A stretch of 64,000 nucleotides of DNA from contig NZ_CP091510.1 of assembly GCF_022870905.1 (NCBI RefSeq), positions 62,001 through 126,000 of the forward strand. The letters are read 5' to 3'. The position numbers and the translations under genes are program-made. Of this stretch, positions 41,738-44,476 are shown piece after piece. Each line of letters starts with the position of its first letter. Position 1 is the first letter of the stretch. A model generated the notes under the pieces. That model had not been told where the DNA came from, made no database searches, and worked only from the letters and a program-made list of their open reading frames with translations. The stretch comes from Neisseria arctica (GTDB lineage Bacteria > Pseudomonadota > Gammaproteobacteria > Burkholderiales > Neisseriaceae).

Positions 41738-43069
41738 ATGTATTCAAAGCATATTTCTTCTACTTCATTGCGGGCTATCCATCGTAAAGAATTAGCAGTA
41801 ATCTTGGCTGCCCTTTTTGCCGTTCCTTCGGCAGCAATGGCGGCCGGGGCAGAACAATATTTCAGCGTGTATAGCACCAACAGTAACGTTGAGTCACATG
41901 CCAACGCTACGGGCAATTATTCAGTGGCGGCCGGTACATGGTCAACTGCTTCTGGTCTTGCCGGTGTTGCGGTAGGCTCCCAGTCTTCTGCTACTAAAGA
42001 ATCTACTATTGCTATCGGCGCACAAGCAAAGGCAACCGCTGTTTCGGCAACAGCAGTAGGCGAGCAGGCTAATGCATCTGGGGCAACTGCTACTGCCGTT
42101 GGCCGTCAAAGCACTGCAAGCGGTGGACAAAGCCTTGCAGCCGGTTCCGAATCTAAAGCTACAGGTCAACTCTCCACAGCCTTGGGAACTAATTCCCAGG
42201 CTTCTGGTAATCAATCAATTGCAGTTGGTGTGGCCACTCAAGCTGATTCGGATAATGCAACAGCCGTCGGGAATCAATCTAAAGCTACCGGTAAATCTGC
42301 ATTGAGCCTGGGTTCTGCTTCTTCTGCTACCGGTGCTGTTTCAACTGCTGTGGGCTCTGAAGCCACGGCGTTAAACGGAGCTGATACTGCATTAGGTCGT
42401 AAAGCGACTGCCAGAGGTGGGCAAAGTACTGCTGTAGGTTCTGCTGCAGAGGCGAGCGGTGTTATGTCACTCAGCGCTGGCGCCGGTTCGAAAGCAACCG
42501 CTTCCCAAGCTGTTGCTTTGGGCCGTGGAGCAGTAGCAGACCAAGCAAGCTCCATTGCTTTGGGTTCGGCTTCTGAAACTGCGCCGGTAGTGCGTACTAC
42601 CAGTGCTACGGTGAATGGTATTACATACAGTGGTTTTGCAGCTACAGCACCTAACTCTACCGTAAGCGTAGGCAAGGTAGGTGCCGAGCGTACCGTAACC
42701 AATGTGGCGGCAGGTCGCATCACGGCTGACAGCACTGATGCTATTAACGGCAGCCAGTTGTATTTGGTCGCGAACCAAGTGGGCAATAATGCAGCAAATA
42801 TTAATCAAATCAACAACCGCATCGACGATATGGATGACGATTTGCGTGCCGGTATTGCCGGAGCAACTGCAATTGCATTCCTGCAACGCCCGAACGAAGC
42901 TGGCAAAAGCATGGTATCTGTAGGTGTCGGCGGTTATCGCGGTGAGCAGGCATTGGCTGTCGGTTACGCGCGTAATTCAGACAACAATAAATGGTCTACC
43001 AAAGCGGGTGTAGGCATCAACACCCAGCGCCACCTAAACTGGGGTGGCAGCGTTGGTTACCAGTGGTAA
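41738..43069 (+). CDS. Trimeric autotransporter adhesin (YadA-like)
   Basis: 443 residues from the ATG at 41738, preceded by AAGGAAAG. A long signal peptide (about 1-35, ending AMA) has a 20-residue basic N-region. The passenger (about 75-280) is about fifteen tandem YadA-head repeats of the form xAxG followed by AxAxG, one per about 14 residues. A neck/stalk block (VGKVGAERTVTNVAAGRIT, about 311-330) leads to INGSQLYLVANQV, then a very short coiled coil (about 347-370) and the four-strand YadA anchor ending in YQW. It should form a surface trimer that binds host or other cells. Compared with NadA or YadA it has almost no stalk. It is followed by a lipoprotein and an L,D-transpeptidase gene, probably one operon. 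Confidence 0.92.
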   Translation: MYSKHISSTSLRAIHRKELAVILAALFAVPSAAMAAGAEQYFSVYSTNSNVESHANATGNYSVAAGTWSTASGLAGVAVGSQSSATKESTIAIGAQAKATAVSATAVGEQANASGATATAVGRQSTASGGQSLAAGSESKATGQLSTALGTNSQASGNQSIAVGVATQADSDNATAVGNQSKATGKSALSLGSASSATGAVSTAVGSEATALNGADTALGRKATARGGQSTAVGSAAEASGVMSLSAGAGSKATASQAVALGRGAVADQASSIALGSASETAPVVRTTSATVNGITYSGFAATAPNSTVSVGKVGAERTVTNVAAGRITADSTDAINGSQLYLVANQVGNNAANINQINNRIDDMDDDLRAGIAGATAIAFLQRPNEAGKSMVSVGVGGYRGEQALAVGYARNSDNNKWSTKAGVGINTQRHLNWGGSVGYQW

Positions 43070-43150
43070 AACCGTAAAAGGCAGGCCATTTGATGCTGGT
43101 ATTTTCAGACGGCCTGACGACACCGAATAAAGAAATTTAAGGATAAAATA

Positions 43151-43612
43151 ATGAAACTGATTAAATTGATGCTACCTTTGGTTGCTGCTGCTACTTTGGC
43201 AGCCTGCGGAAATTTGAGCCATGTAAGCCGTGAAGGTACCACCGATAATCCCGTATGGCCTAGCCCTGAGAAAACCACTTTCCGTCATAACGGTACTCAA
43301 AATGGTTCTTGGCCGAATTGGGATAATGTGCGGATGATTGAATCGGGTATGAATAAAGACCAAATTTACGAATTGATCGGCCGTCCGCACTTCAAGGAGG
43401 GTTTGTACGGTGTGCACGAATGGGACTACCTATTCAACTATCGTGAAAACGGTGAGCATAAAACCTGCCAATACAAAATTTTGTTCGATAAAGACATGAA
43501 TGCCCGTTCGTTCTTCTGGCTGCCTGAAGGTTGCGGTCCGAAACCTAAAGAAACGGTGCGTGAAGTTATCGTTCGTGAAATAGAAACTTCATCAAAACCG
43601 ATCCGTCAATAA
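43151..43612 (+). CDS. SmpA/OmlA (BamE-like) lipoprotein linked to the adhesin
   Basis: 153 residues. The signal peptide ends in the lipobox LAAC, with Cys19 followed by Gly, so an outer-membrane lipoprotein is likely. The mature part contains a BamE/OmlA-like domain (about 55-125): NVRMIESGMNKDQIYELIG then RPHF, WDYLF and FDKDMN follow the BamE pattern of a GM-Q-V-LG-P turn and beta strands. It has no OmpA-type peptidoglycan-binding domain, unlike TpgA, the helper lipoprotein of the Acinetobacter adhesin Ata. Its place directly after an adhesin gene suggests a similar helper role in trimer assembly or anchoring. It is 81 bases after the adhesin and 12 before the next gene. Confidence 0.78.
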   Translation: MKLIKLMLPLVAAATLAACGNLSHVSREGTTDNPVWPSPEKTTFRHNGTQNGSWPNWDNVRMIESGMNKDQIYELIGRPHFKEGLYGVHEWDYLFNYRENGEHKTCQYKILFDKDMNARSFFWLPEGCGPKPKETVREVIVREIETSSKPIRQ

Positions 43613-43624
43613 ATAGGAAGGTTA

Positions 43625-44038
43625 ATGTTGAAAAAAGCATTGTGGTTGATGCTATTAAGCCTGGGCGTTAGTGCCCGGGCTTTTGGTATTGAACAGCCGG
43701 CTTCAGGCGTGGTGGTAGATACCGGCCGGGCCGAGCTGTGTATGAAAGGGCAGTGCTATCCCGTGTTGGTCGGTGCAGCTACTCCCAAAGGTGATTTTCC
43801 TCTGCAATTAATACGAACCACCCGTAAAGGTTACGGGGGAGATGTATTGAAGTTTAAAGAAACAGAGAAATTTATTTTTGCGATACATCGTGTTTGGACG
43901 GGTAAACCGTCTGAGCGCAGGATGGAGCGGATTGTTTCTCCGAATGCTGAGGATCGTAAAATGACGAACGGCTGTATCAACGTAACAAGTGATGTATATG
44001 AGCTGCTAAAGGCTTATAAAAAAGTTACCATACGATAG
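43625..44038 (+). CDS. Minimal L,D-transpeptidase (YkuD-like)
   Basis: 137 residues, far shorter than typical enzymes. A signal peptide covers about 1-20. The rest matches the YkuD core: VVVDTGRAELCMKGQCYPV (first strands), TPKGDF (matching TPxGxF), FIFAIH with His88, and the catalytic TNGCINV at 114-120 with Cys117, a variant of the usual SHGCxR/N. A C-terminal KVTIR strand closes the fold. Such enzymes make 3-3 cross-links or attach proteins to meso-DAP of peptidoglycan. Strong AGGAAGG ribosome site; 12 bases after the lipoprotein gene, so cotranscribed. Two further cysteines (39 and 44) could form a disulfide. Whether it is an enzyme or a binding relative is not shown. Confidence 0.78.
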   Translation: MLKKALWLMLLSLGVSARAFGIEQPASGVVVDTGRAELCMKGQCYPVLVGAATPKGDFPLQLIRTTRKGYGGDVLKFKETEKFIFAIHRVWTGKPSERRMERIVSPNAEDRKMTNGCINVTSDVYELLKAYKKVTIR

Positions 44039-44051
44039 TTCAGTACATAAA

Positions 44052-44080
44052 AAACAGGGCTTTGGGCCCTGTTTCTGTTT
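44052..44080 (+). terminator. Terminator after the adhesin cassette
   Basis: AAACAGGGC / GCCCTGTTT stem with a five-base loop, then CTGTTTT. It lies 13 bases after the transpeptidase stop and marks the operon end. Confidence 0.85.
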
Positions 44081-44212: not shown

Positions 44213-44476
44213 TTATTCTTCGTTGAGCAAACGTTCCACTTCTGCAATATAGCCTTTCATAGCATCTTCGGAAGACATTCCTTGCAGATTGCTCCAAGCT
44301 TCGTATTTCTTTTTAGCCACCAGATCGAACATGCCGGGTTTGTCGCCCTTCACATCACCTTCGGTAGCTTGTTTATAAAGCGAATAGAGTTTAAGCAGGG
44401 TAGCATTGTCGGGGCGTTCGGCCAAGCTGACGACATCGGCTTGGGCTTGTTCGAATTGTTGTTTCAAATCGCTCAT
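44213..44476 (-). CDS. Acyl-CoA-binding protein (ACBP)
   Basis: 87 residues, exactly one ACBP domain. The family signature YSLYKQATEGDVKGDKPG is present at about 31-48, followed by KKKYEAWSNLQGMSSEDAMKGYI. Key residues for CoA binding (Tyr31, Lys35 and Lys57-like positions, and Tyr76-like) are kept. It should hold long-chain acyl-CoA in the cytoplasm. The family is common in eukaryotes and patchy in bacteria, so horizontal acquisition in the lineage is possible. It stands alone on the minus strand. Confidence 0.93.
   Translation of the reverse strand: MSDLKQQFEQAQADVVSLAERPDNATLLKLYSLYKQATEGDVKGDKPGMFDLVAKKKYEAWSNLQGMSSEDAMKGYIAEVERLLNEE

Follow-up and report, generated by a model that had tools for sequence, protein, structure and literature searches.

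A lipoprotein–YkuD gene pair beside trimeric adhesins of Neisseriaceae and its possible role in anchoring to peptidoglycan

A short TpgA-like lipoprotein paired with a tiny YkuD-like protein

Three consecutive genes of Neisseria arctica encode a trimeric autotransporter adhesin, a short lipoprotein with a BamE domain and a tiny YkuD-like protein; they lie in the window analysed here, a stretch of 64,000 nucleotides (NZ_CP091510.1, positions 62,001 to 126,000) from a genome of 2.38 Mb in one contig. Our main finding is that the lipoprotein, which is related to the adhesin helper TpgA, carries a conserved C-terminal tail and no OmpA domain, and that within the Neisseriaceae this tail form tracks the YkuD-like protein from genome to genome. 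An original prediction, made from the letters of the window, had suggested that the wall-contact part of the TpgA layout was replaced here by a separate L,D-transpeptidase. This interpretation was partly supported: the swap was borne out, in that the TpgA-related form without OmpA accompanied a separate ykuD gene in 37/37 genomes against 0/23, and the conserved unit is the lipoprotein–ykuD pair rather than the trio. We give roughly even chances to the reading that the trio is an adhesin-anchoring module, in which a YkuD enzyme dedicated to this task would act on the tail and so attach its partner to peptidoglycan.

Co-occurrence and gene order in the Neisseriaceae

We searched 100 genomes (the window's own and others of its genus, family and order), 60 of them in the window's family. 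The tiny YkuD-like protein was found in 37, all within the family, and the short BamE lipoprotein bearing the tail was present in the identical 37 of the 60 family genomes and was found in none of the remaining 23. Eighteen of those 23 encoded a lipoprotein combining BamE and OmpA domains (TpgA-type), and five, including G022 (85% complete), encoded neither; OmpA was called by Pfam in 7/7 long forms tested (five of them from the 18 genomes), and the remainder were assigned by their C termini. Co-occurrence of tail and ykuD gave a Fisher p of 4e-17, with genomes treated as independent despite their relatedness.

Each of the 37 genomes had a copy of ykuD directly 3' of the gene for the short lipoprotein on one strand, at a spacing of -1 to 48 bases by the starts chosen, with the exception of G052 (273 bases). 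The lipoprotein was broken in its N-terminal part in G019 (N. gonorrhoeae DSM 9188, loci L091/L132), where the ykuD frame was open, and in G041 the copy beside ykuD was broken and a second, intact copy lay elsewhere. The pair stood 3' of an adhesin in 16 of the 37 genomes, and the same order of three genes was found in Nicoletella semolina, so that the arrangement is conserved beyond the single strain from which it had been predicted. Twelve tail-bearing lipoproteins stood beside an adhesin without an adjoining ykuD; since all 12 came from genomes with ykuD elsewhere, the enzyme could act in trans. At one locus (L096), the pair was situated between leuS and ppk, and by synteny we take it to be NMB1898-NMB1899 of N. 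meningitidis. NMB1898 is reported to be up-regulated in blood (PMC3088726) and in a modA11 mutant (PMC2667262).

The BamE domain and the conserved tail

The lipoprotein gene (43151..43612, + strand) encodes 153 aa with the lipobox LAAC and Cys19, and by its open reading frame (ORF), Pfam matches and alignment the product is a short TpgA-like helper without OmpA. Its predicted BamE (SmpA/OmlA-like) character was confirmed by a Pfam match above cut-off (PF04355, 60.4 bits, E 1.5e-16) over residues 52-120 (43304..43510, +), and the Pfam scan gave no OmpA match in this lipoprotein at E<=1. TpgA itself was matched through PDB 9vnj (E 1.8e-14) and by profile (4.1e-15), and the NCBIfam TpgA model NF047726 gave 60.2 bits, not reaching its cut-off of 350. 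Within the BamE domain, K69-D70 align with K64-D65 of TpgA, the correspondence in numbering being taken from the alignment, and among the aligned short forms K69 was kept in 38/38 and D70 in 37/38.

A proline-containing linker precedes the conserved C-terminal tail REVIVREIETSSKPIRQ (43559..43609, +), which was delimited by aligning the short forms. I140, R142, E143 and the penultimate R152 were invariant in all 38 aligned short lipoproteins, in a tail of the form ..IIREV..RIRQ. Across 48 tail forms, Nicoletella included, arginine stood at position -2 in 48/48, and the last residue was Gln in 42, otherwise R, E or K. When the tail was sought in six further BamE paralogues, it was found in none (0/6). 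These (L286-L291) form a separate family of BamE lipoproteins in Neisseria, which end in CRH or CKH and have neither OmpA nor tail.

Identity of the YkuD-like protein

The third gene (43625..44038, +), identified by its ORF, Pfam and homologue alignment, encodes an apparently exported protein of 137 aa with a signal peptide recognised by eye. Judged by its sequence, on which the fold assignment rests, the product is a divergent YkuD-like protein. The original prediction had named it as YkuD-like. The window's copy scored 18.3 bits against Pfam YkuD (PF03734, E 0.0036) and did not reach the cut-off of 23.4, while 36 of 38 homologues matched at E<=1 (best 1.9e-6). The assignment gains support from these matches and from His88 and Cys117 (HRVW...TNGCIN), invariant in 38/38 homologues, whose codons lie at 43886..43888 (+; putative catalytic His) and 43973..43975 (+; putative nucleophile). 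The cysteine motif was TNGC in 37/38 and THGC in 1/38, with Asn in place of the second His, and the His-to-motif spacing was about 25 residues. Canonical YkuD proteins have an [S/T]HGC motif at a spacing of 14-17. A sequence search of the PDB matched no solved YkuD relative.

Scanning 36 genus members with PF03734 gave a canonical-type match in 36/36 (in two pieces in G014; several genomes had one more), and the idea that the third protein is the sole L,D-transpeptidase of the genus was rejected on this ground. The same scan reported the tiny YkuD-like protein in just G012 and G002, whose copies reach the Pfam cut-off, though 29 of the 36 carry it, and the enzyme is thus easily overlooked by a Pfam search. 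The N. gonorrhoeae record examined (G019) encodes the tiny YkuD-like protein plus a canonical YkuD; according to a paper of 2025, this species has just one YkuD enzyme (PMC12274547). The 1,3-cross-linking family was also considered for the tiny protein; the available text of PMC10864386 never mentions Neisseria.

Exchange of tail and OmpA domain

On a tree of the BamE domain (78 rows, 122 columns, C-terminal part excluded), we counted six changes between tail and OmpA, four of them forced by well-supported branches; a 59-row tree gave four changes. Tail forms as a single clade were rejected by the approximately unbiased (AU) test with both trees (p 1.8e-4 with 78 rows, p 3.6e-6 with 59). L106, an OmpA form from a genome without ykuD, grouped beside 23 tail forms, L206 (OmpA, on a long branch) fell within the window's own group, and the tail forms L203-L205 were placed among OmpA forms. 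Besides the trio, the window genome has a further adhesin gene of giant size, whose helper combines BamE and OmpA (L098, contig 1, 2049000-2061000), so that both anchoring designs coexist in one genome.

Relatives outside the family share a penultimate arginine

In Nicoletella semolina, a long-frame adhesin is followed by a 153-aa lipoprotein with the tail IIREI..LIRQ and then by ykuD. This was the sole full-length YkuD of its kind among 140 genomes of the Nicoletella family, where two weak partial YkuD matches were left out, and its lipoprotein was the only one reaching the tail among the matches listed for those genomes. Relatives of the tiny YkuD (hhalign 98.8%) were present in 38/79 genomes of a further family, f54, which is probably the Xanthomonadaceae (the named relatives are Stenotrophomonas). 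At all 30 f54 loci fetched, an Lpp-like lipoprotein ending in RxPRG was encoded directly 5' of ykuD; its lipobox and a coiled-coil pattern, and not its C terminus, had served to locate it, and its Pfam LPP score was below cut-off. This lipoprotein was found in precisely the 35/79 genomes with a close YkuD relative, the coordinates placing the two side by side in every case, and there was one extra weak partial match elsewhere. The three divergent f54 YkuD relatives follow proteins ending in KQDRN or KPYRN.

Further contexts came from a phylum sample (16 of 398 genomes), another family (4/35 matched) and six of seven plasmid records. A match on an E. coli plasmid (L218, pSTEC648_2, CP061838.1) was set aside; here a stretch related to the YkuD branch belongs to a hypothetical protein of very large size, encoded 3' of a glycoside hydrolase gene. 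The neighbours read as partners in these contexts, taken together with the three divergent f54 cases, comprised six Lpp-like proteins, seven of two-partner-secretion type and six small secreted proteins; of the two-partner-secretion type, 3/3 tested were Pfam positive and the other four were assigned by long frames or similar C termini, one being cut at 109 aa. Arginine stood at -2 in 19/19 of these partners (19/20 counting Herminiimonas), and the residue after it was N in 14, H in 4 and G in 1. Among five annotated records, the partner was the gene directly 5' in three and the second gene 5' in two. As background, arginine was found at -2 in 19 of 353 ORFs near Neisseriaceae loci and in 12 of 88 in high-GC loci, true partners excluded. 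The probability that four unrelated types of partner would all have this arginine by chance is about 1e-4, within-type conservation not counted, and this figure is a rough guide because the data used to define the partner types also supplied the counts. The C-terminal tag shared by the relatives' partners points to an undescribed mode of attaching proteins to the wall. The original prediction had missed the conserved tail as well as the similar endings of unrelated proteins encoded beside related YkuD genes, because other genomes are needed to see them.

A proposed mechanism and its alternatives

If the trio anchors its adhesin, the BamE domain would cap the adhesin barrel on its periplasmic face, in the way that TpgA caps AtaA; homology points to this role, which is made probable by the alignment of the TpgA contact pair K64-D65 with the conserved K69-D70. 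The tail, with its penultimate arginine and free C terminus, would stand where TpgA has its peptidoglycan-gripping OmpA domain. The tiny YkuD enzyme, whether its gene adjoins that of the lipoprotein or lies at another locus, would recognise this tail and fasten it to a peptidoglycan stem, so that adhesin, helper and wall would be linked. Since an extreme C terminus with penultimate arginine is the common feature, we favour the free end as the recognised substrate, and as no tail lysine is conserved, a covalent link, if there is one, is unlikely to be of the Braun type. In an alternative chemistry, Arg-X-COOH may mimic mDAP-D-Ala-COOH (mDAP, meso-diaminopimelic acid), the protein C terminus then serving as acyl donor. 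From these sequence patterns we infer adhesin binding, enzymatic activity, and the role of the tail as a substrate rather than a docking site.

A broader proposal, which we hold only tentatively, is that of a Gram-negative C-terminal wall-sorting system, in which a dedicated YkuD might use the penultimate-Arg end (Arg-Gln/Asn/His/Gly) of unrelated exported proteins as acyl donor or acylation site and so join them to peptidoglycan. The end would mimic mDAP-D-Ala, and its bearers would be adhesin-helper and Lpp-like lipoproteins, two-partner-secretion exoproteins and small secreted proteins. Its enzyme gene would be located 3' of the partner or, in Neisseria, elsewhere, and it is conceivable, at the same tentative level, that in the window's family the system was exchanged with an OmpA domain several times.

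Several observations weigh against adhesin anchoring by the trio or against a shared C-terminal signal. No adhesin anchor was found near the pair in 21 of the 37 genomes (about 6 kb searched per side, less at contig ends; 1.6 kb on the 5' side at L074), and together with the 12 adhesin-side lipoproteins lacking an adjoining ykuD this led us to reject the trio as an obligatory cassette. An orphan second ykuD in G052 (L094) lies directly behind a gene for a canonical L,D-transpeptidase. The sub-threshold Pfam score of the window's third protein is joined by a weak profile match to the canonical Neisseria YkuD enzyme (49.8%, N-terminal part only), and the more distant relatives L262 and L263 had no Pfam match at E<=0.01. 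Arginine at -2 also occurs in 6/30 OmpA forms and 4/6 unrelated BamE paralogues and is, for that reason, neither specific nor sufficient on its own. The supported branches of the BamE tree yielded two pairs of independent contrasts, which is not significant, and the exchange therefore carries moderate statistical weight. Among the more remote loci, the 5' neighbour of the Herminiimonas relative (L137) ends in PLG, no partner was seen at L279 and L280, the corresponding place at L265/L281 gave no readable frame, and two Comamonas records have one gene between partner and ykuD; at several high-GC loci, moreover, the exported upstream frame was chosen by eye among overlapping frames.

Much of the evidence can also be accommodated by non-covalent docking, in which the tail recruits YkuD and the enzyme holds or edits stems locally, by 3-3 cross-linking or cleft binding, so that enzyme and tail together replace OmpA. 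We regard this as possible though doubtful: it accounts for the co-occurrence, the pairs in trans and the absence of a conserved lysine, and a simulation in PMC13082670 suggests a strengthening effect of the helper on the barrel that needs no coupling to the wall, but arginine at exactly -2 in all four partner types suits a substrate with a free C terminus better than a loose docking motif. A Braun-type attachment, in which YkuD would link mDAP with a lysine side chain of the lipoprotein, is known for Lpp, OutB and LimB (PMC12274547), and lysine does lie within the last eight residues of 24/38 tails. The remaining 14/38 have none there and 6/38 have none over the last 22 residues, lysine stands at -4 in only 9/31 f54 Lpp-like ends counted (one spurious frame included), and of K69 and K109, both invariant in the short forms, K69 is kept in 27/30 OmpA forms and thus not specific. 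With lysine last in 1/38 tails, a link through a C-terminal lysine was rejected as a general rule on tail conservation, and Braun-type attachment seems very unlikely.

The tiny YkuD might instead remove rather than attach, either as a carboxypeptidase trimming the tail or as a DpaA-like amidase releasing bound helper. Precedents within the YkuD family are ElsL, an L,D-carboxypeptidase (PMC8649774), and DpaA, which detaches Lpp. A detaching role needs a separate attaching enzyme, for which the canonical-type YkuD of all 36 genus members scanned could serve, yet lipoprotein and ykuD are so strictly paired that they seem to need no third component, and we consider such a role improbable. Least probable of all, if only narrowly behind lysine attachment, is that lipoprotein and ykuD merely travel together by descent, the tail serving export, stability or protease resistance. 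Neisseria species recombine DNA readily, and the BamE tree offers few independent contrasts, both of which fit linkage by descent; against this, the co-occurrence of tail and ykuD holds in trans (12/12) and across six changes, and a like ending is found with related enzymes beside unrelated partners.

Should fastening of the tail by YkuD be correct, many Neisseria would rely on a dedicated enzyme, instead of an OmpA domain, to help keep their surface adhesins attached to the wall. Enzymes of this subfamily would also fasten further exported proteins in a number of proteobacterial families, by a peptidoglycan anchoring route using neither lysine nor the N terminus. A handful of C-terminal residues would then suffice to predict the partners of a YkuD branch that is poorly recognised at present, and the question of how trimeric adhesins resist being pulled out would become addressable by one enzyme deletion. 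Our literature searches found neither the pair nor the motif described; Yoshimoto 2025 and Dorison 2026 lay outside their scope, so an earlier account of the trio is possible.

Features of the locus and neighbouring genes

The ORFs for adhesin, lipoprotein and YkuD-like protein are all on the + strand and separated by 81 and 12 bases, as had been described. The adhesin gene (41738..43069, +) encodes 443 aa with YadA head repeats, a stalk and a C-terminal YadA anchor, and a signal peptide was recognised by eye. Its identification as YadA-like was upheld by Pfam, with all matches above cut-off (YadA_head 97.7 bits over 10 stretches, YadA_stalk 38.1, YadA_anchor 64.9). It is a short adhesin; frames at comparable loci are of about 370-530 aa, and the order adhesin, lipoprotein, ykuD with a short adhesin frame was found in 11 genomes, the window genome included. 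The spacer between adhesin and lipoprotein genes contains AGGCCGTCTGAA (43104..43115, - strand, by sequence), which we take to be a Neisseriaceae DNA-uptake sequence. A terminator-like hairpin was found 3' of the third gene by a terminator scan (44052..44074, +), which agrees with the single terminator placed there in the original prediction, and the scan of the trio found no terminator-like site in either intergenic gap. As it also flagged sites within genes 1 and 3 and one on the opposite strand, the total of four is close to that expected by chance (3.1, standard deviation 2.0), making this weak evidence for a single terminator. Just past the trio, a bacterial acyl-CoA-binding protein (ACBP, Pfam 1.4e-29) is encoded at 44213-44476 (-), adjoining a gene for a GNAT acetyltransferase.

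Comparison with known systems

The closest known system is TpgA, the helper of AtaA in Acinetobacter sp. Tol 5, which likewise is encoded beside a trimeric adhesin, has a BamE-like N-terminal domain and shares the Lys-Asp pair; it differs in its OmpA peptidoglycan-binding domain, in place of which the window lipoprotein has a conserved tail and a separate ykuD gene. In simulation, the pulling force is approximately twofold higher when the N-terminal domain of TpgA is bound to the AtaA barrel, where K64 and D65 form salt bridges, and TpgA-like pairs in Neisseria have already been mentioned (PMC13082670). SadB of Salmonella is also a helper lipoprotein linked to a trimeric adhesin (PMC6604945, PMC8151025), but it is a trimeric lipoprotein of the inner membrane to which TpgA has no similarity (PMC8151025). 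Lpp with ErfK/YbiS/YcfS, and OutB with Ldt03/Ldt84 of Dickeya, resemble the pair in that the C terminus of a small envelope protein is handled by a YkuD-type enzyme (PMC12274547). Lpp and OutB end in the acceptor lysine, whereas the window-type tails mostly end in Gln after their invariant penultimate arginine.

Wall attachment through an N-terminal Ala or Gly is known from Brucella and Coxiella. Outer-membrane proteins joined to peptidoglycan in this way (PMC12274547) share wall anchoring with the system proposed here. They differ in that the N terminus is the acceptor there, whereas the candidate signal here is C-terminal. Sortases and exosortases are dedicated transpeptidase-like enzymes acting on a short C-terminal signal carried by unrelated exported proteins. 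The proposed system would resemble them in having one C-terminal signal, arginine at -2, common to four unrelated partner types of one enzyme family. It would differ from them in that no membrane helix or basic end follows the signal, which is the extreme C terminus itself, and in that the enzyme is YkuD-like, apparently periplasmic and found in Gram-negative hosts.

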